Shown here: positions 38,492 to 60,877 of the stretch, one piece after another
Layout: every line of letters starts with the position of its first letter
Position numbering within the stretch: position 1 is the stretch's first letter
DNA from: an uncultured Blautia sp.
GTDB lineage: Bacteria; Bacillota; Clostridia; Lachnospirales; Lachnospiraceae
DNA: 64,000 bases
Direction: 5' to 3'
Assembly (NCBI GenBank): GCA_946557785.1
Contig: CAMNTH010000005.1
Location: forward strand, 1 to 64,000
Position numbers and translations under genes: made by a program
Notes under the pieces: generated by a model
Databases searched by the model: none
The model's input: only the letters and a program-made list of their open reading frames with translations
What the model was told of the DNA's origin: nothing

Positions 38492-38545
38492 CTCAATGGC
38501 TCCTTCTCTGCATATTCCTCAAATCAGTTATGCTTTATTTCGGTT

Positions 38546-39742: not shown

Positions 39743-39756
39743 ACACACCTCAATTA

Positions 39757-40797: not shown

Positions 40798-40868
40798 TTA
40801 TTTTTATCTCTCCATTTTTATATTTGCTCTTTCAAAATTGTATTAAATTAGGCCTTCTGATGTCAAAG

Positions 40869-42113: not shown

Positions 42114-42153
42114 CTTTGCATCCTTCCTTGTGTGAGTATTTCCTCTCATATCT

Positions 42154-43242: not shown

Positions 43243-43298
43243 TTTGTTTCCTCCATCCGCTTCACTCCCTTTCGGCGGATGAAGCTATCTCATTTCTC

Positions 43299-45366: not shown

Positions 45367-45379
45367 GAATCAAACTCCT

Positions 45380-45922
45380 CTACTGAATCGGAACATTTCT
45401 TTCTCTCAAAATATTCTCATGTTTTCTAATCTCACTTTCAGTAAAGCGCGGTATATTTTTAGCTGAAGGTACACCCACATATATTGAGTACGCCGGTATG
45501 TTTCTTGTTACAACTGCTCCAGCACCAATTACACTACCGCGCCCTACAGTAACACCTTTTAAAATAATCGATCGTGTTCCTATCCAACAGCCAGATTCAA
45601 TTGTAACATCTGCATCGTACCCCCCCCCTAGATTATCTTTATCCTTATCTGTAATTTCACATATATGTTTTCCCACAATATCTGTTGGATGATCTCCTGA
45701 ATAAATTGTTACATTTGGTCCAAACATTACATAATCATGTATTTTTATCGTAGCTCCTGTTGAGACAAAATATGCACCAACACCAACTGTAACGTTATCA
45801 CCACATTCAACATTTCCTTGGAAATGGCAATTTTTTGAAATGCGAACATTATTCCCGCATTTCTTTAAGGCTTTTTTTCTTTTATTTTGTATAATCTTAT
45901 AAATCATTATCTTAAACTTCAT
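45380..45922 (-). CDS. Left-handed beta-helix acyltransferase with an internal G9 tract
   Basis: A 180-residue hexapeptide-repeat acetyltransferase: NVTVGVGAYFVSTGATI, FGPNVTIYSGDHPTD (catalytic histidine) and GCWIGTRSIILKGVTVGRGS, ending VTRNIPAYSIYVGVPS. The coding strand has nine consecutive G residues at 45620-45628, encoding Gly-Gly-Gly in an otherwise A+T-rich gene. Loss or gain of one base would truncate the protein, so it may be phase-variable. It overlaps the wzy-like stop by 11 bases. Confidence 0.85.
   Translation of the reverse strand: MKFKIMIYKIIQNKRKKALKKCGNNVRISKNCHFQGNVECGDNVTVGVGAYFVSTGATIKIHDYVMFGPNVTIYSGDHPTDIVGKHICEITDKDKDNLGGGYDADVTIESGCWIGTRSIILKGVTVGRGSVIGAGAVVTRNIPAYSIYVGVPSAKNIPRFTESEIRKHENILRERNVPIQ
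45620..45628 (-). repeat. G9 homopolymer in a capsule acetyltransferase gene
   Basis: Nine C residues on the plus strand (G on the coding strand) within an A+T-rich gene. The length agrees with the reading frame through Leu-Gly-Gly-Gly-Tyr. Such tracts are common sites of slipped-strand mispairing. Confidence 0.85.
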
Positions 45923-47045
45923 AATAATCCCATTCTCTTTGTTCCGGCATTGACGATAGCCAACACAATATTACCCACAAACAGCGATTGTCTATTGCAT
46001 CAAGAAACATAATCTGCAGCAAGCAACCAGTCAAAATGCAAAAATAAGTCTTGTTTACTCTAAATGTTTTGGCCAAAAGTCTCATTGAGAACATTGAAAA
46101 AAGCATAAAACCTATAACTCCAGTTTCACTCAATAACTGAATATATGTATTGTGAGAGGCCTTCCCATAAATACGAGTCATTGCACCCAGACCTTTTCCC
46201 AAAACAGGAGATTGTCTCCATGCATTAAACGCTCTATTCCAAAGTTCTATTCTTCCGTTATCATTTTCTTCTCCAAACACAGTCATACGTTCCCACTGAA
46301 GAGTATAATTCGAAGCTAAATATTTCGACAGATAAACCACGGCCACTACTATGAGCATTACCCAGATTATTTTTGTCACTATTGAAACTTTATTTTTTTG
46401 TAGATAAACACTCAAAACTAATATATTTGAAATTAGCAGGCTCAACATGTTACCTCTAGAAGCCGTGTAAACAATGGCAATGGTTAAAATGACGTAACAT
46501 ACTAAATTAATCAAACGCTTCTTTCCTTCAAGAATATTATCCAAAATCAATACCGAAGCTGAAACAAATGGAATTCCAATAAAATTAGGATCTAACTTAG
46601 TGTTAAACAGCACAATGCTATCATGATAATACCTTGTTGTACCCAATTGATAGCAAGACCAAATAGTAAGTAATGCATATATTACTGTTGACACAGTAAA
46701 AACAAATCTCAGAAAATTTTCTTCTGGTTTTTCCAAAGAATACATTGCTAATAAGACGATACATAATAATATTTGTGCGATATATCTTAAAATGTAACTT
46801 GGAAAACTACCTGAAAATAAAGTCGAAAACAATGTAAATGTAAGAAAAAGTATTAGTATCTTACTTTCTCTCGGTAAGTAAAACAGTTTAAAAGATACAC
46901 CTCCACTAGAAAATGCTGTAAATATAGCAAGCATCAATGTCACAAGTGCTGTAACAGTTCCTAATCTCATATATGATGTTTGAAATAGCATCAGCGCCAT
47001 AAAGATTCCAAACCAGATTATAGGAGTTCGCACTTTATTGTCCAT
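45912..47045 (-). CDS. O-antigen/capsule polymerase (Wzy-like)
   Basis: A 377-residue protein with about ten to eleven membrane helices. The large periplasmic loop near the C-terminus contains GRIELWNRAFNAWRQSPVLG and KGLGAMTRIYGKASHNTYIQ, the pattern of the O-antigen ligase/Wzy_C family. It would polymerise repeat units outside the membrane. Its presence with Wzx supports the Wzx/Wzy pathway. The gene is A+T-rich and strain-specific in appearance. Confidence 0.85.
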   Translation of the reverse strand: MDNKVRTPIIWFGIFMALMLFQTSYMRLGTVTALVTLMLAIFTAFSSGGVSFKLFYLPRESKILILFLTFTLFSTLFSGSFPSYILRYIAQILLCIVLLAMYSLEKPEENFLRFVFTVSTVIYALLTIWSCYQLGTTRYYHDSIVLFNTKLDPNFIGIPFVSASVLILDNILEGKKRLINLVCYVILTIAIVYTASRGNMLSLLISNILVLSVYLQKNKVSIVTKIIWVMLIVVAVVYLSKYLASNYTLQWERMTVFGEENDNGRIELWNRAFNAWRQSPVLGKGLGAMTRIYGKASHNTYIQLLSETGVIGFMLFSMFSMRLLAKTFRVNKTYFCILTGCLLQIMFLDAIDNRCLWVILCWLSSMPEQREWDYYEV

Positions 47046-47073
47046 ATTGTATTCACCTCCATAGTGTCCCCAT

Positions 47074-48174
47074 TTATGCTTCTATATCCGAATAGACCTT
47101 ACAAAGCATGGCAATATTGCTTTCTAAAGTATAATTAGAACTCAAATCTCGGTTTTTCGTTTGCATTTCTTCTAAAATGCCCGGGGTGTCATACAATCTT
47201 CTTACTGCCGTTTCTATATCATGATGGCTTTTCACTCCAATCCAAATTACATTGTTCTCATTCAAAATTTCCGGAGTTGCCCCAACTTTCGTTGAAATCA
47301 GAGCACATCCCTGACTCATTCCTTCCAATATAACAAGCGGCATCCCTTCATGATAGGATGGCAATAATAATACATCTGCCCGATTAAATAATGCTGTTTT
47401 TTGTTTTCCAGAAACATACCCCCATATAGTAGCTTTTTCACCAAGTCTGTCAAATAAACTATTCACGTCACTCTTGATTGATTTATCAGTAAATTTCCCG
47501 CATAGATCCAAATGAAAATCTATATCCTTAAGGTTGTTTAAAGCAGTCAGTAATTCCAGCACTCCTTTTTCTCTGTGTATCGCACCTACATAAATCAAAT
47601 GCAGCTTTGCTGTCCTTTTCAATGCTGCATTATTGCCGACAGTTTCCATATCATGAAAATTATAAAGTACTTTACATCTTTCTTTATACAGCCCTGCTTC
47701 GATAAATTGCTTTTCAATCTCTTTTGACAAAAAAATCACCTTACTGACATATTTATTCATATATGAAATCAATAAATTCCTTAGCAGACGTATTCTGTTA
47801 AATACTGTATTAATATCCCCCACATGGATATTGATAACTACAGAGCAGTTAAATTTCTTTTTTGCCATTTTTGCCAATAAAATGTCTTTTAAAAACAGAA
47901 ACTCTCTAGATGTATGTATGTTTATAATTACATCAGAATCATCTTTTATTTTACTGGATAATGCCTTCCTCTGCTGAAAAATGTATACAATATTATTTAA
48001 TTTTGAGTTATGTTTATCCCATTTCCCCGCAGGTTGATAATCAAATACATCAATTTGAACACCTGCATTTTTAAACAAATCTTTATTTTTCAAATATGAC
48101 TGTAGAATCGAAACTACTCCACCTACATAGGAATTATTGTGCGGCATTCTACAACACATTAAAACTTTTTTCAT
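47074..48174 (-). CDS. Glycosyltransferase family 4 protein
   Basis: A 366-residue GT-B fold enzyme. The N-terminus carries CCRMPHNNSYVGGVVS; the donor-binding half has LIYVGAIHREKGVLELLTAL and the EX7E motif region LLPSYHEGMPLVILEGMSQG. It adds one sugar to the lipid-linked repeat unit on the cytoplasmic side. Donor and linkage are not predictable. Confidence 0.88.
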   Translation of the reverse strand: MKKVLMCCRMPHNNSYVGGVVSILQSYLKNKDLFKNAGVQIDVFDYQPAGKWDKHNSKLNNIVYIFQQRKALSSKIKDDSDVIINIHTSREFLFLKDILLAKMAKKKFNCSVVINIHVGDINTVFNRIRLLRNLLISYMNKYVSKVIFLSKEIEKQFIEAGLYKERCKVLYNFHDMETVGNNAALKRTAKLHLIYVGAIHREKGVLELLTALNNLKDIDFHLDLCGKFTDKSIKSDVNSLFDRLGEKATIWGYVSGKQKTALFNRADVLLLPSYHEGMPLVILEGMSQGCALISTKVGATPEILNENNVIWIGVKSHHDIETAVRRLYDTPGILEEMQTKNRDLSSNYTLESNIAMLCKVYSDIEA

Positions 48175-48225
48175 ATTTTACCTTTCCGATTTTCCGTATA
48201 CCAATTTATATCTAAAATCAGAAAA

Positions 48226-49380
48226 TCACATTATACTATTAACAAAATCTACAATCTTCTTAGATTGAAGATAATAGTTTTTCTTTCCTATAAACTCCTG
48301 TGCAGCTTCACAATATTCGATATATTGCTCATCTTTTAATTGCAAATTGTGAATTATTGCTTTTTTTACCTTTTCCTTGTCTGCCTGATCGACTGGAACA
48401 ATATACTCAAAATATTCCTCTGGTATCCCAAGTAATTTTGTAGATAAAACCAGACTACCTGATGCAATGTATTCAAGAATTTTCGATGGAAAAGAATATT
48501 TTGTTAGTTCTTCAGCAGGTGAGCGAAAGTTTATTAATATTTTCGCTTTTTCTTCCATCTCAAGAACCTCTTTATTATTTACCCTGCCAAAATATTTGAT
48601 TCTGGAATCTTGCGAAGCAAGTGCTCTTATTGTATCTTCGTCAGATCCAACACCACAAATCCACACTTCGCATATTTCCGGTATTTCTTTGCAACACTCT
48701 AACAAGAACGGAATTTTATTATCTGCCGCCAAACCACCGGCATACATGATTATATTTTTTTTGCCGGATGTTGGTTTCTTTCTAATTTCCGGTGCAATTC
48801 CTTCCAGAACCATAGTACGTTTGCTTTTGTACCGTACAACATTTTTCATCTCAGCTGAAAAAAATACATATCCATCAAACTGCTCATTAAACCAAGTAAA
48901 GACTCTCTTTTTTATTTTCGAAAAAAACGAATTCCCATAGCGTCGTAACTCCGGTACTTCCGAACAGATTGTGACAAACTTAATATTATATTTTTTCTTA
49001 TATTTAACAAGATAATGCTCAAATATTGGATTGACGGCATACATGATCACTCTTAAACCATCCTGACTCTTTTTACATATATCTAGTAAGTATTGCTCAA
49101 ATATCTTCCCTGCCAAAATTGCACTCCTCGCACTACTCTTTTCTATCGGAAGATGTTTAACCTTAGCATTTTCAATATAACTTTGTGTTGGAATCTGCAA
49201 TCTGCCATTTGTTGGAACATAAGAAATAAAATCAATATTTTCTCCCAACTGAGCATGTAATCCCCGAATCAGGTTATACTCAAACTTCTGTCTAGCAACA
49301 GACATATTATTAATCTTCTCTTTTAAAATCAATTCAAACGTCATCTCGTCAACATAGTATCCAACAAATAAATAATGCAT
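48226..49380 (-). CDS. Glycosyltransferase (GT4-like)
   Basis: A 384-residue GT-B type protein. The C-terminal half has IIMYAGGLAADNKIPFLLEC, YFGRVNNKEVLEMEEKAKIL and INFRSPAEELTKYSFPSKIL with EYIASG, equivalent to the EX7E donor region of GT4 enzymes. The N-terminal half diverges from typical family members. It should act on the capsule repeat unit. The ATG at 49380 has AAGGAA. Confidence 0.8.
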   Translation of the reverse strand: MHYLFVGYYVDEMTFELILKEKINNMSVARQKFEYNLIRGLHAQLGENIDFISYVPTNGRLQIPTQSYIENAKVKHLPIEKSSARSAILAGKIFEQYLLDICKKSQDGLRVIMYAVNPIFEHYLVKYKKKYNIKFVTICSEVPELRRYGNSFFSKIKKRVFTWFNEQFDGYVFFSAEMKNVVRYKSKRTMVLEGIAPEIRKKPTSGKKNIIMYAGGLAADNKIPFLLECCKEIPEICEVWICGVGSDEDTIRALASQDSRIKYFGRVNNKEVLEMEEKAKILINFRSPAEELTKYSFPSKILEYIASGSLVLSTKLLGIPEEYFEYIVPVDQADKEKVKKAIIHNLQLKDEQYIEYCEAAQEFIGKKNYYLQSKKIVDFVNSIM

Positions 49381-49384
49381 TTTT

Positions 49385-49930
49385 TTATTCCTTATAATGA
49401 TAATATTCTTTTAAAGCCCTATCTTTTTTTTCGTATTTTAAATGTCCCAATCCCAAAGATTCTTTCTTTGCCTTTTCAAAATAATCATCTGCAGTTTTTA
49501 TTACTCGTGCTGGGACGCCTACTGCAACGGAGTTACTCGGAATATCATGTGTTACAACTGCTCCTGTTCCGATAATTACTTTATCGCCAATCGTCACTCC
49601 CCCCATTATGGTTGCGCGCGCTCCAATATACACTTCATTGCCAATGACAATTGGTCGGGTCAATTCCAGTGTTGGCTCCTGATTCCTAAAGAGAAGCGTT
49701 GCACCATCATGGGTTACAAATCTGCATTCCGCTGTAACATAAACATTATTTCCCAATGTAATAATCCAGGGTTCCGTTCCCCAGGAAACCTTCCCGTAGA
49801 CATGGCAATTATCACCCATATTGACTCCGATTTTTCTCGCAAAGAATTCATGACTTATTTTATCCAATATAAAATAATAGGGATTGATAAATAACTTCTT
49901 CACTTTTCTTAATATGCTATTCATCTTCAT
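49385..49930 (-). CDS. Left-handed beta-helix acyltransferase
   Basis: A 181-residue hexapeptide acetyltransferase. RFVTHDGATLLFRNQEP contains the catalytic histidine, and the coil IGNEVYIGARATIMGGVTIG leads to VTHDIPSNSVAVGVPARVI. It starts at the last base of the CDP-alcohol transferase stop region, so it is coupled to that gene. It probably acetylates a sugar of the repeat unit. Confidence 0.87.
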   Translation of the reverse strand: MKMNSILRKVKKLFINPYYFILDKISHEFFARKIGVNMGDNCHVYGKVSWGTEPWIITLGNNVYVTAECRFVTHDGATLLFRNQEPTLELTRPIVIGNEVYIGARATIMGGVTIGDKVIIGTGAVVTHDIPSNSVAVGVPARVIKTADDYFEKAKKESLGLGHLKYEKKDRALKEYYHYKE

Positions 49931-50673
49931 TAATGCTCCCTATCATATTTATCTGCCTTGTAGATATAAATCACTGTAGTCGAAACCAATGCGAAAATAT
50001 TAAACGCACAATAAAATAATGTCATCAAATCATATGCGCCAAAGATTCCACACAATATCGTCAGAGGCATAAATGCGCCCGAAATACCAATTTCTTTTCC
50101 CACTCTTCTCCGAATATAAGAAAGTGACTTTTTGCTTTCGTTGATATAATCTGTAGGAACATAATCGGAACGTTTCATAGAGAAATTCCCATAATCCTTG
50201 TTTATCAGTCTTGCAAGAATATCCGAGATACATGACACAGCACCAATTACAATAATCCAGTGACTACCATTCAGAAAAATTCCTCCGTCAACGTATGTGC
50301 GAATTGATATTGCAAGATATACAAAAGCAACTACATAGTATCCACCTATATCGTCTACAAACTCTCCATAAATTGTTTTCTGTTTCCTACAACGTGCTAT
50401 ATTTCCATCTACACAGTCCAAGATCAGCCATAGATTAATAGCGACAATTGCTGCCACCAGGGTCCACATAGCCGGTACAGCAAAGCAAACGAATGAAAAC
50501 AGCGCTACGAAAATAGAAAGCACAGAAACACCATTCGGTGAAAATCCCAAATTGATCAACAAAAATGTAAATAGGAAGGATGTTTTCCGTACCCACAGTT
50601 TCACCCACCAGGAACTATTCGAATTCTTTTTCACCGGAAGTGAATCTAAAATCTGGCTATATGTATATTTCAT
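49930..50673 (-). CDS. CDP-alcohol phosphatidyltransferase family protein
   Basis: A 247-residue membrane enzyme with about six helices. The signature D-x2-DG-x2-AR-x8-G-x3-D-x3-D is complete in DCVDGNIARCRKQ followed by GEFVDDIGG. Family members transfer a phosphoalcohol from a CDP-alcohol to another alcohol. With the cytidylyltransferase gene just upstream it suggests a capsule decorated with or built from glycerol phosphate or another phosphoalcohol. The ATG at 50673 has AAAGGAG. Confidence 0.88.
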   Translation of the reverse strand: MKYTYSQILDSLPVKKNSNSSWWVKLWVRKTSFLFTFLLINLGFSPNGVSVLSIFVALFSFVCFAVPAMWTLVAAIVAINLWLILDCVDGNIARCRKQKTIYGEFVDDIGGYYVVAFVYLAISIRTYVDGGIFLNGSHWIIVIGAVSCISDILARLINKDYGNFSMKRSDYVPTDYINESKKSLSYIRRRVGKEIGISGAFMPLTILCGIFGAYDLMTLFYCAFNIFALVSTTVIYIYKADKYDREH

Positions 50674-50736
50674 ACAAACCTCTCCTTTCAACTCTCCGAC
50701 TAATAAATTTGATTAGTCTCATTCATACTCCATTGA

Positions 50737-50844
50737 TTACTTCATGCCCCTATATATAATCCTTAACTTATTTCTAACCGCCGTAGAATTATCTGGAACA
50801 TCTTCAAATATGACTGTACCAGCCCCTCCACTTTCCAAATTCAT
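50737..50844 (-). pseudogene. Small ORF, C-terminal remnant of an acetyltransferase
   Basis: A 35-residue frame starts one base inside the cytidylyltransferase stop (TGATG) and includes GTVIFEDVPDNSTAV followed by RNKLRIIYRG. This resembles the C-terminal end of hexapeptide acetyltransferases (VPDNS..VGNP), with no body. It is probably left by an in-frame deletion; a functional micro-protein is less likely. Confidence 0.45.
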
Positions 50845-51269
50845 CACATAGTCTGCCCAATTCTATCTCTAAGCATCGTAGATGAAACCGACTGTGTATA
50901 TGGTAAATAAACCATATCTACACCGATTTCCAAAAGTTCTCTTTCTATACGCTTCCACTTTTCCGTACCTTTCCAGTCATCTCCAACAAACATGACATCA
51001 ATATCATATTTGACTGCAGCAGATTTTTTATCTGAATAGTCTGTCTGTGGAACTACTTCATCAACATATCGAATTGCTTCCACAATCCTTACCCTGTCTT
51101 CAAAATTAATAATTGGCTTTTTATGCTTGTTCTGCCAAACGACCTCATCTGTTGAAACAGCAACAATCAAGTACTCACAATATTGCTTTGCACTCATAAT
51201 TACATTCAGATGCCCTACATGGAACATATCGTAGACACCTGCTGTATATCCTACTTTGTATTTTTTCAC
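50844..51269 (-). CDS. Glycerol-3-phosphate cytidylyltransferase-like protein (TagD-like)
   Basis: A 141-residue cytidylyltransferase. The nucleotide-binding HxGH motif is DMFHVGHLNVI, with VGDDWKGTEKW and YLPYTQSVSSTML completing the TagD pattern. It makes CDP-glycerol (or another CDP-alcohol) from CTP. It starts with GTG at 51269, behind GGAG, and overlaps the stop of the preceding gene. The natural partner is the CDP-alcohol transferase downstream. Confidence 0.9.
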   Translation of the reverse strand: MKKYKVGYTAGVYDMFHVGHLNVIMSAKQYCEYLIVAVSTDEVVWQNKHKKPIINFEDRVRIVEAIRYVDEVVPQTDYSDKKSAAVKYDIDVMFVGDDWKGTEKWKRIERELLEIGVDMVYLPYTQSVSSTMLRDRIGQTM

Positions 51270-53146
51270 AGAAGAATCTCCTTAATTTTCTCTTTATACG
51301 CATTAACAACAATACTCCGAGAAAAATTCTCTTCTACATACTGTCTTCCAGCTTTTCCCATCGTCTTTCTAATCTCATTTTCCATCGCTAAGAATCGTTC
51401 AATTTTCTTTACTAAATCCTCAACATTACCACCGTGATAAATAAAACCTGTCTGCTCATTTATTACGGTTTCCTGGCATCCAGGATTATCTGTGGTAATG
51501 ATAAATCGTCCTGAACTTGCATTCTCCAGAAGAACATTACTCATCCCTTCCCCGTAGGTAGACGGATGAATGATTGCATGTGCTCTTGTGATAAATGGTT
51601 TTACATCTTTCTGGCTTCCCAGGTATCTTACAATGTTCTGTTTTCTCAGTTTTTTCAGTACTTTCATATAATGTTTTTCCGTTGGTTCAATAAAACCAAG
51701 CATATTGAATTCTGTATTCGGATATTTTTTCTTAATCCGTTTTGCTGCCTCAATATAGTCATCCACACCTTTATCATGCAGAATACGACCTATGTAATTG
51801 AACACAATTGATTCACCATCAACACCATTGCCGCCAAGCGGATATGGCTGCAGTGGGTATCGCTCTGTATCCACCCCTGAACCTGGAATCAACTTATAAT
51901 CCCCTTTAATCATTCCGGAATCCAACGCCATCTTCATATTGGTAGAGTTCTGAAACATAACACAGGCTGCTCCGCGATATGCCGTCTTAAACAATGTCAT
52001 GATAAACGCACGCATCAAACCTGTCTTATTCAAAACACTGCCCAATCCTGTTACATTATTGATGTACGGAATCCCAAGCTGTCTTGCTGCAACACTTGCA
52101 TAAACATTAGGCTTCGCTGTGTATGTCAGCACAACTGCCGGTTTATATTTCTTAAATAACTTTCTATAATGCAAGAATAATTTGCTGTCTGCAACAACAT
52201 TTGTTCCACGTCTATCAATGACAGGATCATCATAGATGTACGGAATATCTGTCATTAGTTCAAACTTGGGACCATTCGGACACGAAATAAGCATTTCGTA
52301 GCCTTCTTCAATGAGTCCTTCGATAAGTTCCTTACGAAAGCAATAAACATCATCATCATTATTTGTAAGTAACGCAACCAATGGCTTTTTTCTATTTACT
52401 TTAGTATTTTTTGTTGTTTTTTTCATAATCTTTTTCTTCTTTGTTTTCTCTTTTTCTGGAAAGTCTATTCCTACTACTGCCAACACAGTCTTTATCATCG
52501 TTCCAATTTCTCTCCAAAAACTGAACTTTCGGATGCTCTCCAAATTGTATTTCATCTTTTGCGGAAGTACCTGTTTCACATACACCTTATCAACATCATC
52601 CGCAGCATTCAGTAATTCTGCTTCATCTTTATATCTAATGCTGGCTTCTGATGTAATTCCTGCAGGAAGCAACAATGTCGCACGCATCTCTTTCGTATAC
52701 TTCTTCACGTATTTCGTTGCCTCTGGCCTGGTTCCCACCAAACTCATATCTCCCAAAAGAACATCAAATACCTGCGGTAGCTCGTCCAATCGATATTTTC
52801 TTAAAAACTCTCCCACTGGTGTAATCCGGCTATCTCCGGAAACTGTTACTGTAGAACCAATCTGATCTGCGTCCGCTACCATTGTGCGAAACTTATGTAT
52901 TCTAAATTTCTTTCCATATGTCGTGATACGTTCCTGCCGATAGAACACACCTCCCGGTGATTCAGCTGTTATCTTAAAACTGATAATCAACATCGGTATT
53001 GCAGTCAAAATAAGCACACAGGTTCCAGCAGCGATGTCAAAAAGGCGTTTCATCTTCAGACTCAATCTCTTCTCAGAAAGAATATCGTAATATTCTTTTA
53101 CTTCTTCACACTGCATAAACTTCGGAAGCTCTTCCCACTTTCTCAT
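51266..53146 (-). CDS. Fused priming sugar-phosphate transferase and GT4 glycosyltransferase
   Basis: A 626-residue two-domain protein. Residues about 30-225 are a bacterial sugar transferase (monotopic phosphoglycosyltransferase): one hydrophobic re-entrant helix, KFRTMVADAD, the catalytic Asp-Glu in KYRLDELPQVFDVLLGDMSL and VGTRPEA. After a lysine-rich linker (about 228-255) comes a GT4 domain with YTAKPNVYASVAARQLGIPY, GSGVDTERYP and YGEGMSNVLLENASSGRF. In PglC/PglA these two steps are separate proteins. It would load the first and second sugars onto undecaprenyl phosphate. The ATG at 53146 is preferred over a TTG at 53161. Confidence 0.9.
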   Translation of the reverse strand: MRKWEELPKFMQCEEVKEYYDILSEKRLSLKMKRLFDIAAGTCVLILTAIPMLIISFKITAESPGGVFYRQERITTYGKKFRIHKFRTMVADADQIGSTVTVSGDSRITPVGEFLRKYRLDELPQVFDVLLGDMSLVGTRPEATKYVKKYTKEMRATLLLPAGITSEASIRYKDEAELLNAADDVDKVYVKQVLPQKMKYNLESIRKFSFWREIGTMIKTVLAVVGIDFPEKEKTKKKKIMKKTTKNTKVNRKKPLVALLTNNDDDVYCFRKELIEGLIEEGYEMLISCPNGPKFELMTDIPYIYDDPVIDRRGTNVVADSKLFLHYRKLFKKYKPAVVLTYTAKPNVYASVAARQLGIPYINNVTGLGSVLNKTGLMRAFIMTLFKTAYRGAACVMFQNSTNMKMALDSGMIKGDYKLIPGSGVDTERYPLQPYPLGGNGVDGESIVFNYIGRILHDKGVDDYIEAAKRIKKKYPNTEFNMLGFIEPTEKHYMKVLKKLRKQNIVRYLGSQKDVKPFITRAHAIIHPSTYGEGMSNVLLENASSGRFIITTDNPGCQETVINEQTGFIYHGGNVEDLVKKIERFLAMENEIRKTMGKAGRQYVEENFSRSIVVNAYKEKIKEILL

Positions 53147-53199
53147 CTTTTTATCCCTCAATTCTGCTGAGAAAGCGTTGCTCTTCCTCCCGCAAATTT

Positions 53200-54435
53200 C
53201 TATATGTATTCTTTCAAAGCCTCTTTAAATTTCTCCACCACATACTCCACATCCTCATCAGATAGTTTCGTATGTAATGGTAACGTAATCAAATTCTTAT
53301 AATAGTCATACGCATTCGGAAAATCCTTGATATCCCATCCAAGTGCTTTATACGCAGTCATCATCGGAAGCGGTTTATAATGAACATTCGTTGCTACACC
53401 TTTTTCTGCCAGCTTTTCGATGATTTCGTTTCTCTGTTCGCAGGTAATTCCCGGAATTCTGGTTAGATAGAGATGTCCGCTGCTCTTGTAATCCTCTCCG
53501 TAATGATTCATGTGGAACACGCCAAGTTCATCACATATTGCATCGTACTTACCGATAATCTCCCTTCTTCTTTCCAACATTCCCGGATAACGGTCAAGCT
53601 GACGTAAACCCATTGCTGCCATGATATCAGTCATATTGCACTTGTACCATGGGCCAATAATGTCATACTCCCATGCCCCAAGCTTTGTCTTCGCCAAAGC
53701 ATCCTTATTCTGCCCATGCAGGCTGTATAACTGGTACTGCATGTAAAGAGCTTCATCATCTGCTCCCGGAATATTCCAGGTTGCAGCTCCACCTTCGGCT
53801 GTAGTAAAATTTTTTACAGCATGATAGCTATAAGAGGTCAAATCGGCTGCTTCTCCTGCCATTTTACCGTGACGAAATGCACCTAAAGCGTGAGCACAGT
53901 CGGATACCACAGCAACTCTGCCAAGCAGTTCCTGAACTGGACTTTCTGCCTTAAACAGATGCTTCTTGTTTTCTACTGCCTGATAAATCCGCTCATAGTC
54001 GCACATAATACCGCCAAGGTCAACACAGATAATCGCTTTGGTGCGCACTGTGATAGCCGCTTCCATAACGTCATAATCCATTTCAGGAGAGCCTGTGACC
54101 GGATCGCCATCCTTCTGGGAATCTACAAAAATCACAGTAGCTCCGCAATGGATTACTGCCGACGCTGATGCCGTGTATGTGTATGCCGGAACTATGACTT
54201 CATCCCCCGGTTTAACTCCAAGAATACGCAGATTTAGTTCTTCTGCCGCAGTCGCAGAATTTAAGCACACCTGTTTATTTGTATGACAATATTCTGCCAT
54301 ACGCTTTTCTAATTCTTTCGTTCTCGGGCCTGTGGTAATCCAACCAGAGCGAAGCGCCTTTGCTACCTCTGTAATCTCCGACTCGGAGATATCCGGCGGA
54401 CTAAACGATATTATTCTCTTTCCATTCTCTACCAT
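53200..54435 (-). CDS. DegT/DnrJ/EryC1/StrS-family sugar aminotransferase
   Basis: A 411-residue PLP enzyme. GVKPGDEVIVPAYTYTASAS, the aspartate in VVSDCAHALGAFRHG and the Schiff-base lysine in SYSYHAVKNFTTAEGGAA are as in PglE/PseC. It would add an amino group at C4 of the 4-keto sugar made by the dehydratase encoded just upstream, giving a UDP-4-amino-4,6-dideoxy-GlcNAc type sugar for the priming step. The start has AAGGGAG. Confidence 0.93.
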   Translation of the reverse strand: MVENGKRIISFSPPDISESEITEVAKALRSGWITTGPRTKELEKRMAEYCHTNKQVCLNSATAAEELNLRILGVKPGDEVIVPAYTYTASASAVIHCGATVIFVDSQKDGDPVTGSPEMDYDVMEAAITVRTKAIICVDLGGIMCDYERIYQAVENKKHLFKAESPVQELLGRVAVVSDCAHALGAFRHGKMAGEAADLTSYSYHAVKNFTTAEGGAATWNIPGADDEALYMQYQLYSLHGQNKDALAKTKLGAWEYDIIGPWYKCNMTDIMAAMGLRQLDRYPGMLERRREIIGKYDAICDELGVFHMNHYGEDYKSSGHLYLTRIPGITCEQRNEIIEKLAEKGVATNVHYKPLPMMTAYKALGWDIKDFPNAYDYYKNLITLPLHTKLSDEDVEYVVEKFKEALKEYI

Positions 54436-54512
54436 GATCTATGTATCTCCCTTATGTATATTGCTGCCTTCTTGTTTCCATTGAGACTAATGCAGCTTAA
54501 CCTCCTTAGTCC

Positions 54513-56453
54513 TCATACAACTGCCAGTTCCCGCCGATTCTTCATCTCATCAGATTCACTGGCTTTTACATTCACCTCTTCTGGTTTCTTAAAGGTTGGA
54601 ACAACCCGTCTCAAAACATCACGGACCCAATCATCAGATCCGGTTTCACAGGCACGATGAAGCATTTCCAGTTTTTCATTAATTTCCTTTTCACTCAAAG
54701 GTATATCACGCTCAACGAAAATCAAGCTGTTGTCTGTTTTATCAAGTTCCTCTGTTTTCACAAGAAGCTCCTCATAGAGTTTCTCTCCTGGTCTTAATCC
54801 TGTTTCAACAATTTCAACTCCCTGAATACCGGACAATCGGATCATATTTTCCGCAAGGTCAAGAATCCGAATCGGCTGTCCCATATCCAGCACAAACAAT
54901 TCGCCGTTATGTGCCATAGCTCCGCTTGCCAATACCAGCTGACTTGCTTCCGGTATTGTCATGAAGTATCGGATGATACGCTTATCTGTCAGTGTAACGG
55001 GACCTCCATTAGCGATCTGTTTCTTAAACAACGGAATTACAGAGCCCGCCGACCCTAAAACATTCCCAAATCGGGTAGCGCTGTACTTTACTTTCCCATG
55101 GGTACTTGCACTTCGTACCAGCATCTCACACATCCGCTTTGTCGCACCCATGACATTTGTTGGATTAACCGCCTTATCTGTAGATACCATCATGAAACGT
55201 TCGGCTCCATATTCCTCACAGCAGTCCATCACATTCTTTGTTCCAAAGACGTTATTCTGCACTGCTTCCACACAGTTGCGTTCCATAAGCGGAACATGCT
55301 TATGTGCAGCCGCATTAATTACAATATGAGGATGATAGGTGCGGAATACCTTTCCCAATGCCTTCTTATTCGTAATAGACATAATTTCTATACGGACATC
55401 CAGCTTTCCAGTATAGGCAATTTTTAATTCCTGTTGGACATCATATGCACCATTTTCATAAATATCTAAAATCACAATCTGTTTTGGCTGCATCTTCGCA
55501 AGTTGCCTGCACAGCTCAGAGCCAATAGAGCCACCGCCTCCAGTAATCAAAATTACTTTATTACGATAATATTTACTGGTTCGCTCATCGTTTACAACGA
55601 TTGGACGCCTGAAGAGCAATTCTTCAATATCAAACTCTCTGAGATGCCGCTTTCCACCGGCGGCCTGCATTGTTGGATAGTCATATACTTTGATCTTGTA
55701 TCCGGCCTTTTGATAATGTTCATAAAGCCTCTTCTTTTTGTCATCTGCAAGATGCGGAATTGCAAATACAACTTCCTGGATATCCAAAAACTTCAATTGT
55801 TCCAACGTAGCTTCATCTTCAACAAGCACAGGAATTCCATGAATATCCCGCCCAACTTTTTCCTTGCTTACATCTACAAAGCACTGCGGTGTATATGCGG
55901 AAGCAGCATTGTTTAAGAGTTCCTCCGCCAGGCTGACTCCTACACGCCCTGCGCCAATAATTGCAATGTTAATCTTCGTTGCATCAAGCGTGCGCTCTCC
56001 AACTATCTTGCTTCCAGCAAACACCCTTAATATCAGCAGCAGGATTTTCCCAAAAAGGGTATTGCTATTTCCACATTTAAACGCATAACGGTACATTATT
56101 CGTATTGTTAATGCACCCAGTAAATTCATGCAGGCAATGACAAGCACTCTCAAACAGGTTGCATGTTCCATCGGAAGTATTCTTCCTATAATCAATGTAA
56201 TCACCAACCCAATCGAATCTGTAAAAATCAATCGAATATAGCATTGAATCCCACCGTATCTCCAAATTTGGTTATATATGCTTCCCAATAATCTGGATAG
56301 AAAAACAGCAGCAAAACCAACAGTTCCCTGAGCCACTATTCCTGAAACGGAAAGTTTACTACCTGAGAAATCAAACAGCAGTAAATTAACAAAAATCATT
56401 ATAAAAACATCATAAAAAAAAAGCTGCCATCGAATATTTATCTTTTTCTTCAT
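54513..56453 (-). CDS. Membrane UDP-GlcNAc 4,6-dehydratase (CapD/PglF type)
   Basis: A 646-residue protein: four N-terminal membrane helices (about 10-130), a CoA-binding-like Rossmann domain (NIAIIGAGRVGVSLAEELL, about 160-280) and the C-terminal SDR dehydratase with TGGGGSIGSELCRQLA, VSTDKAVNPTNVMGATKR and RFGNVLGSAGSVIPLF. The methionine in place of the SDR tyrosine (STDKAVNPTNVMG) is the known feature of this group. It supplies the keto sugar to the aminotransferase. The ATG at 56453 is chosen because the upstream frame runs through two hairpins. Confidence 0.93.
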   Translation of the reverse strand: MKKKINIRWQLFFYDVFIMIFVNLLLFDFSGSKLSVSGIVAQGTVGFAAVFLSRLLGSIYNQIWRYGGIQCYIRLIFTDSIGLVITLIIGRILPMEHATCLRVLVIACMNLLGALTIRIMYRYAFKCGNSNTLFGKILLLILRVFAGSKIVGERTLDATKINIAIIGAGRVGVSLAEELLNNAASAYTPQCFVDVSKEKVGRDIHGIPVLVEDEATLEQLKFLDIQEVVFAIPHLADDKKKRLYEHYQKAGYKIKVYDYPTMQAAGGKRHLREFDIEELLFRRPIVVNDERTSKYYRNKVILITGGGGSIGSELCRQLAKMQPKQIVILDIYENGAYDVQQELKIAYTGKLDVRIEIMSITNKKALGKVFRTYHPHIVINAAAHKHVPLMERNCVEAVQNNVFGTKNVMDCCEEYGAERFMMVSTDKAVNPTNVMGATKRMCEMLVRSASTHGKVKYSATRFGNVLGSAGSVIPLFKKQIANGGPVTLTDKRIIRYFMTIPEASQLVLASGAMAHNGELFVLDMGQPIRILDLAENMIRLSGIQGVEIVETGLRPGEKLYEELLVKTEELDKTDNSLIFVERDIPLSEKEINEKLEMLHRACETGSDDWVRDVLRRVVPTFKKPEEVNVKASESDEMKNRRELAVV

Positions 56454-56491
56454 TTTTTTCCTCTTCCGTCTATTTGTTATCACCCGATATT

Positions 56492-56563
56492 CGCATATAG
56501 GAACGGTACGGTCTCCCATATCGCTCCTATATGCGCACCTGCCGCCTGCTGTCCGGCAGATGC
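56492..56563 (-). promoter_or_regulatory. Two adjacent RNA hairpins ahead of the dehydratase gene
   Basis: In transcript order, GCA-CTGCCG pairs with CGGCAG-TGC (56535-56563, one mismatch) and then CGCATATAGGA pairs with TCCTATATGCG (56492-56535). No T run follows either. They lie in the 124-bp gap between the secreted-protein gene and the dehydratase gene. Tandem hairpins of this kind can recruit antitermination factors in long polysaccharide operons, but no such factor is in the window. Confidence 0.45.
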
Positions 56564-56577
56564 ACAAGCGTTCCGGA

Positions 56578-57243
56578 TTATTCACCTGTTTTTGGGTTAT
56601 ACACGATCATCAAAGGACCTACTTCTTCCAAATGGAAGAACAATGTTTTTTCTTTGTAATCTACTTCCGGTTTGATCACAGTCCATCTTTTTTCTTTATG
56701 GATGTTATGGTGCAGAACACGGATATCCCTCATTTCTTCTGTCAGGTTCTGCACTTCAACCTTTACATCAACATTCTTAGCCCCTTCTATGATGTTTCCT
56801 GCTGCATCTTTCACCACAACGTCATGAATCTTAGTCAGGGGAAGACATGCCTCCACATCAAAGGTATCCTCCGGATCTGCATATTCAATCTGCTCTTCCT
56901 TGATCATCTTCTTGATTTCTTCCTTAAAGACATTCATATTGCCGGTTTCTGCTGCTTTGTCAATGGCCTCATTCACTTTCTCAATCTGAGTCCGTACTTC
57001 CTCTGTGACCTTTGTAGTAATCTCAATTACTTTTCTCTCTTCATCTTCCACAGGGAATACCTCGATCCAGCCTTCCGACACCGGATTTCCCTGGGCATCC
57101 GTTACACCGGAAGCTTCCGTAATCTGAGATTCCACAACAGTTACCCCTGCCCCGATGCTGGGTGCTGCATATACACCGGATACGGTAAGCACTGCTGAAA
57201 GCACCCAGGCTGATAATATTTTCAATAATCTTCTCTTCATCAT
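56578..57243 (-). CDS. Secreted protein of unknown function in the capsule operon
   Basis: A 221-residue protein with a clear signal peptide (MMKRRLLKILSAWVLSAVLT, cleavage near VYAAP). The mature part is acidic, helical in the middle (TEEVRTQIEKVNEAIDKAAE) and beta-rich at the end (WTVIKPEVDYKEKTLFFHLE). No catalytic motif is visible. The start codon at 57243 has AAAGGAGG. It directly follows the LCP gene by 17 bases, so a role in polymer attachment or surface display is possible but unsupported. Confidence 0.7.
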   Translation of the reverse strand: MMKRRLLKILSAWVLSAVLTVSGVYAAPSIGAGVTVVESQITEASGVTDAQGNPVSEGWIEVFPVEDEERKVIEITTKVTEEVRTQIEKVNEAIDKAAETGNMNVFKEEIKKMIKEEQIEYADPEDTFDVEACLPLTKIHDVVVKDAAGNIIEGAKNVDVKVEVQNLTEEMRDIRVLHHNIHKEKRWTVIKPEVDYKEKTLFFHLEEVGPLMIVYNPKTGE

Positions 57244-57260
57244 CTCTGCCTCCTTTTGCA

Positions 57261-58268
57261 TCACATTGATTTCCTTTTGTAAAAAAGTTGCAATACCAAC
57301 TGCTGCAATGCTTCTTCATCCACCAGAAATTCATCATGGTATTTTCCAGCTTGATCCGTTCCCTGGACTATGTAATAGTCCTGTTCGGGATCAAACTCAT
57401 ACTTCAATGCCATCTCTGCAAAAGAAGAAATTTCATTCAGTCCGATATTGGTTACTGTGTTTGAAAAAACAGTTTCCATTCTGGATACGGTTCCGGAGAA
57501 ATCCTCCCTCAGCAGCAGTTTCAATTTCTCCAGATAGGCTTCCATATAAAGTTTCTGTCTTCTCATTCTTCCCTGATTGGAAAACTCCTGCTCCGTGTCA
57601 CGGCTTCTTACAAACCGCTCCACGTTCCCGGATGTAAGGGTCAGGGAACCCTCTTTATAAAAATCAGCATCCAGACCAGACAAATCGTCTTCTGTAACCT
57701 GAATGGTGATTTCCCCCACTAAATCATGAAATACCGAAAGTGCAGTCAGATCTGCAGCTCCGTAATAAATAACCGGGATGCCCTGAAACATCTTGGATAC
57801 CGCTTCCTGAGCCAGCAGGCACCCCTTTTGCCTGGTTCTTCCGAAAGCATATGCAAGTGCCAGATGCTGTTCATTCCAGCCAAGGTCGTTTCCTACAGCA
57901 TCAAATACTCGGATCGGCACCATGGAATCACGGGAAATTCCCACCACCCGTATTCTTTTTTCCCCTCTGTCAAGAATCAGAAGATTAATAAAATCCGATT
58001 GTCCCATCGTATCCTGACCCTCAGAATCAATTCCCAGCAGAAGCATGGTGATCAAATTCGTATTGTATCTATATTCAACACCATCTGCAGTAGCCTTTCT
58101 GTACAGGCGTTCATCAAGCCCGACAGGTGGTATACTTATTGAGATTTCCTCCCGCCGATTCACATACAGCAAAAACAAAAGTCCTGCCGTCGCAGCGATC
58201 ACCGCAACAGTAACAAAAAATCCTGCACCTATCCGGCGTCTCCTGCTTTTACTTTTCTTTATATCCAT
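57261..58268 (-). CDS. LCP-family (LytR-CpsA-Psr) polymer transferase
   Basis: A 335-residue membrane-anchored protein with one N-terminal helix (about 13-33). The LCP core shows MLLLGIDSEGQDTMGQSDFI, VVGISRDSMVPIRVFDAVGN and the arginine-bearing ERFVRSRDTEQEFSNQGRMR. LCP enzymes transfer lipid-linked capsule or teichoic chains to peptidoglycan. It overlaps the kinase gene by 20 bases. Confidence 0.92.
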   Translation of the reverse strand: MDIKKSKSRRRRIGAGFFVTVAVIAATAGLLFLLYVNRREEISISIPPVGLDERLYRKATADGVEYRYNTNLITMLLLGIDSEGQDTMGQSDFINLLILDRGEKRIRVVGISRDSMVPIRVFDAVGNDLGWNEQHLALAYAFGRTRQKGCLLAQEAVSKMFQGIPVIYYGAADLTALSVFHDLVGEITIQVTEDDLSGLDADFYKEGSLTLTSGNVERFVRSRDTEQEFSNQGRMRRQKLYMEAYLEKLKLLLREDFSGTVSRMETVFSNTVTNIGLNEISSFAEMALKYEFDPEQDYYIVQGTDQAGKYHDEFLVDEEALQQLVLQLFYKRKSM

Positions 58269-58923
58269 ATTTGTAATATCCTGAATAATAATAATAATCT
58301 TTCTGGTGCTTTTTCACTCTGTTCAAAATAACACCCAAAAGCTTGCACCCATTCTGTTCAAATTGCTCAGCGCCTCTCTTCACTGCCGCCTTTTTGCAGA
58401 AATCATTGCGGACTACTATCAAAGTACCGTCTGCATTTCTTCCGGTAATGGCAGCATCAATTACAGATCCGATTGGCGGTGCATCCATCACGATATAGTC
58501 ATATTTCTCTTTTAACGCATTCATAAATACAGAAAATTTCTGACTGGATAGCAGTTCCGAAGGGTTGGGCGGAAGCTTTCCGCTGCTTATAAAAGATAGA
58601 TTTGGAATATCCGTATTATGAATGATCTTTACAGACTGCCCTGTAAGGAGTTCGCTTAAGCCCTCCAGCTTTCTGCCTCCATGAAAACGATCCATCATGG
58701 AAGACTTTCTAAGGTCGCAGTCCACCAGCACCGTCTTCTTTCCTAGCTCAGCAAAGCTTCTGGACAGCTGAACTGCAATTGTAGATTTTCCTTCATTAGG
58801 TAATGTGCTGCTGATATTAATGGTCTTAATATCATTGCTGTAGATGATATTGGTTCTTAAAGTATTCATGGCTTCCGTGACAGCAAACTCCGGTTCCATT
58901 CCTTTCATTTCTATCATACTCAT
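58249..58923 (-). CDS. Capsule BY-kinase (CpsD/YwqD-like)
   Basis: A 224-residue P-loop tyrosine autokinase. Walker A STLPNEGKSTIAVQL, Walker A' VLVDCDLRKSSM and Walker B DYIVMDAPP are intact, and the C-terminus has a tyrosine cluster (YYYYSGYYKYGY) for autophosphorylation. It works with the membrane activator encoded next to it to control chain length and export. The start at 58923 is 15 bases after that gene. Confidence 0.93.
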   Translation of the reverse strand: MSMIEMKGMEPEFAVTEAMNTLRTNIIYSNDIKTINISSTLPNEGKSTIAVQLSRSFAELGKKTVLVDCDLRKSSMMDRFHGGRKLEGLSELLTGQSVKIIHNTDIPNLSFISSGKLPPNPSELLSSQKFSVFMNALKEKYDYIVMDAPPIGSVIDAAITGRNADGTLIVVRNDFCKKAAVKRGAEQFEQNGCKLLGVILNRVKKHQKDYYYYSGYYKYGYKEK

Positions 58924-58938
58924 ACGTTTCTTATCCCC

Positions 58939-59643
58939 TTACCACTCCACAGTCTTCTTCTGAGGTACATTTTTATAGGAACAGCTGGTGCTTTCCGGTA
59001 CAATACAGAAAACAGGCAAACGCAGCACCTGTTCCACATCCCGTACGGAACGGATGGTATCGTTCAAAATATAATTCAACGTAATAGCGCCTGCTACCAA
59101 TACAATTCCCAAAAGCGCACCCATCATCAAGTTCTTTCTGTGGGAAGGGCTGACCTTATCCCAGTCCGTCACAGCTTTTTCTATCAGGTATGGCTCCTTG
59201 GAATCAATTTCTTTAACACTTTCCATTCCTACTTCCACAAGCTCATTTACGATGCTGCTGGCCAGCTCCGGGTCTGCATCCTTTATGGCAACCCGCAGGA
59301 TACGGGTATCCTCCTGATTATTCAGTTCTACTCTTCCCTTTAACTGTTTCCAGGTCATATCAAGGTTCAGATTTTTAATTACTTCTTCCAGGATCGGACG
59401 GCTTCTGAAGATCACCTCGTAATCTTTTGTAAGGGCTGCGCCTACCTGCAGGTCCTGAAAAGAAACGGTTTCCCCTGCACCTCTCATATAAACCATGGAT
59501 GACGCTTCATAAATTGGAATGGCAATCTGGAAGGTATACACCCCTGCCAGAAGGATTCCTGCCACAAATCCACTAAGGATCATCCACCATCTTTTTAAGT
59601 ACTGCCGGAATAGATCCTGAAGATCAATATAATCCGAGTTCAT
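58939..59643 (-). CDS. Chain-length regulator/kinase activator (Wzz/CpsC-like)
   Basis: A 234-residue membrane protein with helices at about 20-40 and 170-190 and an extracellular loop between, plus the proline-rich-type segment DKVSPSHRKNLMMGALLGIV. It activates the BY-kinase and sets chain length. Two starts are possible: the ATG at 59643 (AGGA) or an in-frame TTG at 59679 (GGGGAA). I chose the ATG since MNSDYIDLQDLFRQYLKRWW fits the family N-terminus. It is the first gene of the capsule operon. Confidence 0.88.
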   Translation of the reverse strand: MNSDYIDLQDLFRQYLKRWWMILSGFVAGILLAGVYTFQIAIPIYEASSMVYMRGAGETVSFQDLQVGAALTKDYEVIFRSRPILEEVIKNLNLDMTWKQLKGRVELNNQEDTRILRVAIKDADPELASSIVNELVEVGMESVKEIDSKEPYLIEKAVTDWDKVSPSHRKNLMMGALLGIVLVAGAITLNYILNDTIRSVRDVEQVLRLPVFCIVPESTSCSYKNVPQKKTVEW

Positions 59644-59707
59644 GTTATTCCTGCTTACATCCGTCTTAATTTTTTCCAAAACCAGTTCCCCATTCTTTCC
59701 CGGTAAG

Positions 59708-59756
59708 TTTTACCAATTTATCATAAAGTTAGATACTTTACGATAAATTGGTAAAA
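59708..59756. repeat. Long palindrome containing the left crossover site
   Basis: TTTTACCAATTTATC and GATAAATTGGTAAAA, extended by TAAAG/CTTTA with one mismatch, form about 21 paired bases around the loop TTAGATA. On the minus strand it can form a hairpin in the leader of the capsule mRNA; no T run follows. One half lies inside the invertible segment, so inversion would break or rebuild it. Confidence 0.8.
59722..59742 (+). repeat. Left inverted repeat (recombination site)
   Basis: CATAAAG-TTAGATA-CTTTACG. Arms TAAAG/CTTTA surround a 7-bp asymmetric core, the usual form of a tyrosine-recombinase crossover site. It matches the reverse complement of 59901-59921 at 19 of 21 positions. Confidence 0.8.
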
Positions 59757-59837
59757 TATTACAGAAACCAAAAAATCCATAAGGCATAATAAACGCCTTT
59801 TGGGGCAGAAATAAAAAATTACTGGGTAAAATTACGA

Positions 59838-59866
59838 TTGACATATGTAAATAATTCAAGTAAACT
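59838..59866 (+). promoter_or_regulatory. Promoter inside the invertible element
   Basis: Consensus TTGACA (59838-59843), a 17-base spacer and TAAACT (59861-59866) on the plus strand. In this orientation it reads into the antisense strand of the recombinase gene. A weaker opposite candidate (TTGAAT-17-CGTAAT on the minus strand) overlaps it. Confidence 0.6.
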
Positions 59867-59900
59867 ATTAACGTCAGTAGATTATAGCCTATATATGTTT

Positions 59901-59921
59901 CGTATAGTATCTAACTTTAAG
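59901..59921 (-). repeat. Right inverted repeat (recombination site)
   Basis: Read on the minus strand it is CTTAAAG-TTAGATA-CTATACG, the same 7-bp core and nearly the same arms as the left site. It ends five bases before the recombinase stop codon. Confidence 0.8.
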
Positions 59922-59926
59922 ACTAT

Positions 59927-60877
59927 TCAGAGTTTTAAAAGATTTATCTGTTTTCTTTTGGTTTCCAGGGAAGAATGTACATAATAATTCAGCGTAATGC
60001 TTATATTTGCATGTCCCAGAATTTCACTTAACGTTTTCACATCCATCCCCACTCTCACACATTGTGTCGCAAATGTATGCCGCAGAATATGAAAATTCAC
60101 GTTCCTGATTCCGTTTTTTCGGAGTACGCTTTTAAAAAAATATTGATAATTCCTGGGTTCTATAAACCGATTCGTATTAGTCAGAAAAAAGCTGGAATCA
60201 TCCGCTTTTCCCCGGATTTTTTTGATACTTTGATAGATCTGATTAGAAATAGGAATTGTCCGAATGGAAGAGGCTGTTTTGGGTTCATCCATTACAATCT
60301 GCGTTCTATGCACACTGTTTTCATCTGTTACGGAAATGCGCTGCAGAGTATGTCGGACATGAATCACCTTATTTAAAAGATCAATATCCGCCCAGCGAAG
60401 AGCACAGACTTCCCCCAGACGTATCCCGGAATACATACATAAAAGAATTCCTTCGCATCGGGCATCACTCCTGTGTTCCCACAGATAATGGAATAAGGTC
60501 TTCGTCTCCTCCTCTGTTAAAGTTTCTATTTTTTCTTTTTTCACCTTTGGCATGACTGTATTTTCTGCCACATGACATATCTGGTACTCGCTCTCTGCAT
60601 ATTTGATAATTGCTTTTAAAACCATATTAATGTCTCTGACTGTTTTGCTTCCCAGTCCTTTTTTACTACCCTCTCCACCAATTCCCATCTTTTTGCTGGT
60701 AAATGCATTGATCATGGAGGAATTCAGTTTTTCCAGGGGTATTTCCCCCAGCTCAGGGATTATCTGACGCTTTACAATACAATAATACGTAGAAAACGTG
60801 GATTGCTTTACAGTCAGCTTTTTCATACTCAGCCATTCGGTACTTACATCATTAATTGTAATCTTTGAAACATCCAT
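59927..60877 (-). CDS. Tyrosine recombinase, likely the invertase for the capsule switch
   Basis: A complete 316-residue site-specific recombinase. An N-terminal SAM-like core-binding domain (about 1-100) precedes the catalytic domain, in which the residues are present: Arg in YSGIRLGEVCALRW, the HILRHTFATQCVRVG box (HxxR), the histidine in EILGHANISIT and the nucleophile in TLNYYVHS. Its 3' end lies next to the right inverted repeat, and no excisionase, other phage gene or attachment duplication is nearby, so a local inversion role is more likely than prophage integration. The ATG at 60877 has AAAGGAG. Family members include XerC/D, Tn916 Int and DNA invertases. Confidence 0.92.
   Translation of the reverse strand: MDVSKITINDVSTEWLSMKKLTVKQSTFSTYYCIVKRQIIPELGEIPLEKLNSSMINAFTSKKMGIGGEGSKKGLGSKTVRDINMVLKAIIKYAESEYQICHVAENTVMPKVKKEKIETLTEEETKTLFHYLWEHRSDARCEGILLCMYSGIRLGEVCALRWADIDLLNKVIHVRHTLQRISVTDENSVHRTQIVMDEPKTASSIRTIPISNQIYQSIKKIRGKADDSSFFLTNTNRFIEPRNYQYFFKSVLRKNGIRNVNFHILRHTFATQCVRVGMDVKTLSEILGHANISITLNYYVHSSLETKRKQINLLKL

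Follow-up and report, generated by a model that had tools for sequence, protein, structure and literature searches.

Does the short segment that separates a capsule operon from a tyrosine recombinase gene in an uncultured Blautia sp. act as a promoter that can be turned around, and so as a switch for the capsule? The segment lies near the end of the window, by which we mean the whole stretch of DNA that was analysed (64,000 nucleotides). A first-pass annotation had proposed an invertible capsule promoter here. We think it very likely that the segment is an ON/OFF phase-variation switch for the capsule operon in this Blautia genome, and it probably flips in this strain, judging from the sequence. 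The comparison with relatives is the strongest evidence for a switch and carries more of the case than the consensus of the promoter or of the hairpin.

The segment has the anatomy that was claimed for it. Two inverted 21-mers (59722-59742 and 59901-59921) are identical at 19 of 21 positions, have the core TTAGATA in common and are separated by 158 bp (172 bp core to core). That is, inverted repeats with a common core flank a short segment. They lie between the first capsule gene and a complete tyrosine recombinase gene, a placement that the open reading frames bear out, down to the recombinase frame ending five bases off the right 21-mer. A repeat search stretched the arms to 28 nt at 86% identity (Table 1). 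The best inverted pair of 21-mers in the 260 bp after the recombinase scored 19, and the maximum in 200 dinucleotide shuffles was 18; the pair is thus above chance, which is moderate evidence. On the minus strand, the order of genes is purA (62020-63300), a HAD-family gene (61095-61916), the recombinase gene, the segment, and then the genes for Wzz, the CpsD-like and LCP proteins and more polysaccharide genes.

Table 1. Features of the probable switch locus in the window, and examples of the RNA element found at other loci
Feature	Location	Strand	Comment
Presumed capsule cluster, about 22 kb	37310..59679	-	Pfam scan from 51266 upwards; rest by eye from translations
LytR-CpsA-Psr (LCP) family gene	57261..58268	-	
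CpsD-like tyrosine autokinase	58249..58923	-	
First capsule gene, Wzz-type chain length determinant	58939..59679	-	TTG start
Long palindrome around capsule-side site	59708..59756		22-bp arms, 95%; one half outside, one inside the segment
Capsule-side recombination site	59721..59748	+	28-nt arm; core TTAGATA at 59729-59735 (+)
Putative invertible segment	59736..59907		172 bp between cores; interior has homologues in L007 (same sense) and L113 (inverted sense)
Terminator-like hairpin and T-rich tail	59771..59799	-	Faces capsule genes as read
Conserved promoter-plus-hairpin block	59778..59868	-	Source of model R1
Promoter TTGACA-17-TAAACT	59838..59866	+	TTGACA 59838-59843, TAAACT 59861-59866; faces recombinase as read (OFF); conserved in L007 and L113
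Recombinase-side recombination site, inverted	59895..59922	-	28-nt arm; core TTAGATA at 59908-59914 (-)
Tyrosine recombinase, 316 aa, presumed invertase	59927..60877	-	Catalytic residues R153, K200, H263, R266, H289, Y298/Y299
RNA element, example	L258:7742-7836	-	
RNA element, example	L261:7867-7976	-	
RNA element, example	L011:2798-2903		
RNA element, example	L017:2007-2092		

We searched for the site pattern in the 3.17-Mb genome that contains the window. There were two exact matches, both at the switch, and no further copy with up to 2 mismatches in this own-genome scan. A copy with 3 mismatches on contig C15 was taken as chance; a reversed control pattern gave 7. A 13-mer scan of 8 genomes at 2 mismatches was uninformative, as the control pattern exceeded the matches, among the matches listed. 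The flipped junction, sought in viral contigs, gave 0 matches.

The promoter annotated between the sites is present on the + strand with its 17-nt spacer, so by sequence the segment does contain a promoter, and TTGACA-17-TAAACT is kept in two homologous elements, L007 and L113 (see below). A consensus scan did not make it significant: 4 sites were found in the 3-kb region and 8.6 were expected, that is, the count was below the shuffle mean. The opposite strand carries a terminator-like hairpin. The hairpin proper (59781-59799, -) has a predicted energy of -12.7 kcal/mol, and 1 of 200 shuffles was equally stable; the hairpin of L007 is stronger (-14.5 kcal/mol, 0 of 200 shuffles) and has a T-run behind it. 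Terminator-like consensus sites were hardly above chance (4 found vs 2.1 expected). The palindrome around the capsule-side site has a predicted energy of -25.2 kcal/mol and is without a T-run. Because one of its halves is outside and the other inside the segment, it would be present in the OFF orientation only. Neither the hairpin facing the capsule genes nor the palindrome was in the first-pass annotation.

A mechanism can be proposed in which the recombinase would bind both sites, TC(A/T)TAAAG-TTAGATA-CT(T/A)TACGA, and strand exchange in the asymmetric core would invert the 172-bp segment. In the inverted form (ON), the promoter of the segment would read into the capsule genes. The form found would be OFF: the promoter is directed towards the recombinase, and the hairpin, facing the capsule genes, would block read-through from upstream. 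We infer that the neighbouring recombinase is the flipping enzyme, that capsule expression follows the flip, and that the hairpin terminates transcription.

We looked for homologous elements in relatives. A search with the recombinase gave 14 loci in the first round, and a search with Wzz gave a match in 50 of 64 genus genomes. L007 (G024:C178) has an element in the orientation of the window, with the core TTAAATA and 172 bp inside; its recombinase is 64% identical and its Wzz ~35%. In L113 (G028:C36), where the contig holds only the 3' end of a recombinase gene (residues 264-316 match) and its first ~70 bases look disturbed, the element is inverted, with the core TAACATA and 174 bp inside. 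Its Wzz is 85% identical, and its promoter, TTGACT-17-TACACT, reads into Wzz. The interiors were compared by local alignment in direct and inverted sense, each against 1000 base shuffles. The window and L007 scored 73 direct and 21 inverted (shuffle maximum 32), the window and L113 scored 20 direct and 38 inverted (28), and L007 and L113 scored 32 direct and 108 inverted (26); in this last pair the direct score also beats its shuffles.

The conserved promoter-plus-hairpin block was made into model R1, which is sequence-only and has 98 columns and three sequences. In 64 Blautia genomes, R1 gave three strong matches (E 1.7e-26 to 2.7e-23), which are the same sequences that it was made from, and then there was a gap to 8.1e-5. 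No fourth strong copy of the block was found in the 64 genomes by this search, the strict filters of which may miss weak copies. The matches in the window and in G024 face the recombinase; that in G028 faces the capsule gene. Comparing orientation in related genomes, as the first-pass annotation had suggested, thus gave both senses between genomes (G024 as the window, G028 inverted; both are metagenome assemblies, with contamination of 6 and 3%, respectively), and one orientation in the assembly of the window's genome. The homologue in G028, with its promoter towards the capsule gene, supports the earlier reading that the promoter of the window faces away from the capsule and is OFF. Together with the polysaccharide genes behind 7 of 8 such elements (see below), it also supports the proposal of an invertible capsule promoter.

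The regions ahead of Wzz genes were scanned at 32 distinct loci (L083-L112, L118 and L119; L105 is without upstream sequence, and L006 is outside the scan). Site-like pairs were found in L083, which is the window, and in L084, which is L113. At L093, which is the locus of L007, the scan gave another pair, and it was a pattern search that found the real one. Pairs in L089 and L104 were rejected as switches because they do not have the form of the sites. No inverted pair was detected ahead of the Wzz orthologues in G050 and G043 (59 and 55%), where a plain TTGACT-17-TACAAT promoter can be read by eye.

The recombinase has an N-terminal SAM-like domain and a Phage_integrase domain (E 7.6e-29), and its catalytic residues are kept in 12 of 12 aligned members of its clade, as expected of a tyrosine recombinase. 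In a tree of 74 proteins it formed a clade of five with L004, L005, L006 and L007 (support 100/98), inside which architecture labels are mixed. One match at 21% was the only relative in viral contigs. With its full length and all catalytic residues, the protein appears intact. This bears on the possibility that the switch has decayed, that is, that it was invertible in an ancestor and is now locked OFF, the capsule being either silent or expressed from another place. Decay would fit with the one orientation seen here and with the two sites being unlike at 2 of 21 positions, and more generally the single orientation in the genome, a promoter consensus that is not above chance and the partial recombinase of L113 are points against an active switch. 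However, both cores are identical, the sites of L007 and L113 differ as much as those of the window, and the recombinase has kept its length and its catalytic residues. We consider decay improbable. Anatomy and comparison argue that the switch is real, and that it is OFF as read.

We surveyed 77 oriented recombinase loci, 76 after dropping L151, a copy of L011. In 46 of these, the recombinase sits inside its own inverted-repeat pair, roughly 1.1-1.7 kb apart (some of these labels, L170 and L192, are weak). This layout, seen for example in L201 (G000:C10), L191 and L210, is Hin-like. Neighbours of the recombinases inside repeats had no dominant family; TnpB-like genes were the commonest on one side (4/42), and on the other side none exceeded 2/43. 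The pair is downstream of the recombinase in 8 of the 76 (the window, L006, L007, L011, L017, L113, L182 and L183; looser settings were needed to find those of L007 and L113) and upstream in one (L164, where it overlaps a DnaJ gene). No pair was found in 21, including L005, the contig of which ends at the core.

Seven of the eight downstream elements precede polysaccharide genes, and the eighth (L183) runs off its contig. Wzz is behind the element in the window, L006, L007 and L113. A TnpB-like gene comes first in L017, followed by Wzz, and in L011, followed by a Polysacc_synt_2 gene; L182 has a 168-aa open reading frame without a family, a NusG-domain gene, an aminotransferase and a sugar transferase. 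The best promoter by raw consensus count faces the recombinase in 7 of the 8 and the operon in L113 only, with small margins between the two senses in L007 (9.75 vs 9.5) and L011 (10.75 vs 10). The recombinase-side site of L006, L011 and L017 forms a strong hairpin that might stop antisense transcripts from the OFF promoter. Antisense silencing of the recombinase by that promoter is only a thought.

The arms of the sites are alike across much of the family (TTCGTRAAG...CTTYACGAA, with variants, and a second set, GTCGCTTAT...ATAAGCGAC). The short cores vary from locus to locus and agree within each pair, as is predicted by strand exchange in a core private to the locus. Strong hairpins can form at several of the sites (in L006 and L017 a T-run goes with them, behind the recombinase gene), and the repeats could be no more than terminators or hairpins between two genes, their inverted likeness incidental. 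We regard this as extremely unlikely: it leaves unexplained why two distant arms have one asymmetric core in common, why the cores of a pair change together from locus to locus, and why the interiors are alike in inverted sense. That the sites are recombination sites is also in keeping with a pair of relatives. Between L258 (G051) and L259 (G004), from two close genomes, a 1446-bp segment bearing a recombinase is inverted (91.5% identity), with one flank 97.1% identical (4.7 kb) and the other 98.6% (73 bp). This inversion is evidence that sites of the family may well recombine. In L005 (JAUNGM010000074.1), with a recombinase 70% identical to that of the window, the contig stops at 3063, precisely where the core TTAGATA ends, as would be expected from assembly of a population of mixed orientation; this is a single case.

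Some recombinases have no adjoining pair of sites. These include L004, from a close relative, and the clade members L008, L009, L010 and L012, so the recombinase gene can exist without a local switch. Three genomes, G009, G020 and G026, have clade recombinases without local sites (L008, L012 and L009) and also, at other places, small switches whose arms are similar and which precede TnpB-like genes (L266, L269, L267, L272 and L271), which suggests that the clade recombinases act in trans there. L004 keeps purA, the HAD gene and the recombinase (81%), and is missing 36745-59926 of the window, that is, the switch, the capsule cluster and a glyoxalase-like gene. It runs from the recombinase end straight into a region with 6S RNA and aldose epimerase. 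The window also has a T-box leader (32739-32959, -) and the 6S RNA gene (36507-36683, -), and both are matched in L004.

The missing region in L004 would fit with an integrase whose mobile island is the capsule region, the inverted sites being a by-product, and so would the best solved relatives of the recombinase, which are chains named 'Int protein' (6en0, 6emz and 6emy, E 3.3e-22 and up). We take these to be Tn1549/Tn916-type integrases. The recombinase here shares their catalytic domain family (E 3e-22), but has no conjugative element genes beside it in the open reading frames examined, and its sites are inverted, not direct. Inverted sites predict inversion, not excision. Moreover, the own-genome scan gave the two sites and the one 3-mismatch match on another contig, with no third site and no direct-repeat copy at the far end of a movable segment. 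Because no further copy of the site was found, excision of 36745-59926 by the switch sites is not supported, and we consider an island very improbable.

That capsules are switched ON and OFF is well known for Bacteroides and, more recently, for Akkermansia. The first-pass annotation had drawn an analogy with the Mpi and Tsr switches of Bacteroides and with those of C. difficile (RecV). For Mpi the likeness is one of layout: Mpi is a serine recombinase, and that of the window is a tyrosine recombinase. We compared the locus to described switches. The capsule promoters of Bacteroides fragilis are small, invertible and directly before the capsule operon, which is ON or OFF by orientation (PMC10939037); in contrast, the operon here is a Gram-positive one (Wzz/CpsD/LCP), a tyrosine recombinase gene adjoins the switch, and the site sequence is another. 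In Akkermansia muciniphila, the cps1 inverton likewise puts a capsule cluster under an invertible element; its repeat motif, CGGATT..AATCCG, is different, and the word 'recombinase' is absent from the main text of that paper (PMC13343947). The pdcB (Cdi2) switch of C. difficile is similar in its Firmicutes host, its size (174 bp), its imperfect 19-bp repeats, the promoter inside and the silencing in the OFF form, which blocks an upstream promoter; its target is different, a c-di-GMP phosphodiesterase gene 840 bp away (PMC9286219). C. difficile also has flagellar switches, and its recombinase RecV is described (PMC8890394). The switch would work like those of Bacteroides, Akkermansia and C. difficile, a likeness in working that need not mean membership in any of these groups.

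Among the matches listed from open-licence full-text literature, there was no paper on this switch or on a Blautia capsule inverton; the 2019 inverton survey (Jiang and others) may list such elements. Invertible DNA in the group is not new as such, as the median per Clostridia-like genome in one community is put at 3 invertons by a paper the main text of which does not contain 'Blautia' (PMC11892184). The device is likely of a known kind and its setting new; its probable tyrosine recombinase adjoins it, and a promoter/terminator pair lies inside. Blautia is an abundant gut genus, and the switch is small and beside its likely enzyme. If the switch is as proposed, capsulated and bare cells would occur side by side in a clonal Blautia population, with a bearing on phage resistance, on immune contact and on the interpretation of single-colony experiments.

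A further gene was seen at related loci. In L011 (1503-2687) and L017 (658-1902), a protein with a Pfam TnpB C-terminal domain (Cas12f1-like_TNB) is encoded between the switch and the capsule genes; the window locus is without such a gene. The family also occurs elsewhere in the window's own genome, at G000:C10:84851-86107 (L212, L250), and at loci L250-L275, and relatives of the C10 copy were found in 15 of 64 genus genomes. A second TnpB-like gene of the own genome, G000:C36:946-2123 (L235, L270), is split over two frames and lies behind an inverted pair with arms as at the C10 locus and another core. A strong inverted pair was present <=800 bp upstream of the TnpB-like gene in 17 of 26 loci vs 0 of 26 downstream controls (the control stretch is short or nearly absent for L270 and L271). 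Among the remaining 9 loci, a related recombinase lies upstream in six; the pairs of L263 and L264 are weaker, and there is none in L262. The 74 open reading frames downstream (first three per locus where present) included 13 Epimerase, 11 Polysacc_synt_2 and 9 Glycos_transf_1 members.

The TnpB-like proteins are apparently nuclease-dead, as far as an alignment of 27 of them with one another can tell (fragment L270 was dropped). At the places where the RuvC acidic residues should presumably be, which we set from the usual motifs, there are FTN (N in 27/27), P (26/27) and, by eye, a non-acidic residue before LN (27/27). A D two residues past FTN is kept in 25 of the 27, and thus the first RuvC place is open to doubt. 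No credible relatives of the protein were found in the PDB, and none in viral contigs. Guide-like matches 3' of the genes were rejected: the longer ones are paralogous 3' regions, and the rest are 13-18 nt and patternless. A 78-nt query for a guide target in two genomes found itself and then, in one genome only, a best match of 17 nt (E 0.07). As no more than a side observation, TnpB relatives that look nuclease-dead and lie near an invertible promoter are reminiscent of TldRs, nuclease-dead TnpB repressors described with flagellin and Hin recombinase (PMC13418256). The loci here differ in having polysaccharide operons and sites of the tyrosine recombinase type. Among the matches listed from open-licence full-text literature, none was on TnpB relatives with capsule switches.

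It is possible, although we hold it only tentatively and with some doubt, that the switch in the window is the simplest form of a wide Lachnospiraceae system for capsule phase variation. Recombinases of the family, nearby or in trans, would act on sites that have arms in common and each pair a core of its own, and would flip promoters that at other Blautia loci read a nuclease-dead TnpB-like gene, in many cases then a conserved structured RNA, and then a polysaccharide operon. The protein and RNA would be a second, RNA-based layer of control, which might antiterminate in cis or target rival capsule loci. UpxY and UpxZ of Bacteroides have a role comparable to that proposed.

The RNA element (GGTTGAATACCGCC...GTATTCGAAGTTAT) lies 3' of TnpB-like genes, has a long helix that covaries and is closed by GAAGTTAT in 20 of 28 loci. 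There was no Rfam match in 12 loci. We analysed the helices in 18 non-redundant copies, chosen by the GAAGTTAT motif. In the long helix, 99.1% of cells were paired, with two-sided changes at 3 of 6 pairs; the other two helices were 75 and 81% paired. The covariation score was 0.250 vs 0.167 in shuffles, and pairs with a two-sided change were not above shuffles. RNAalifold gave only -2.98 kcal/mol for a shorter alignment, and for a longer one -21.3 kcal/mol vs -1.3 in column shuffles (minimum -8.9).
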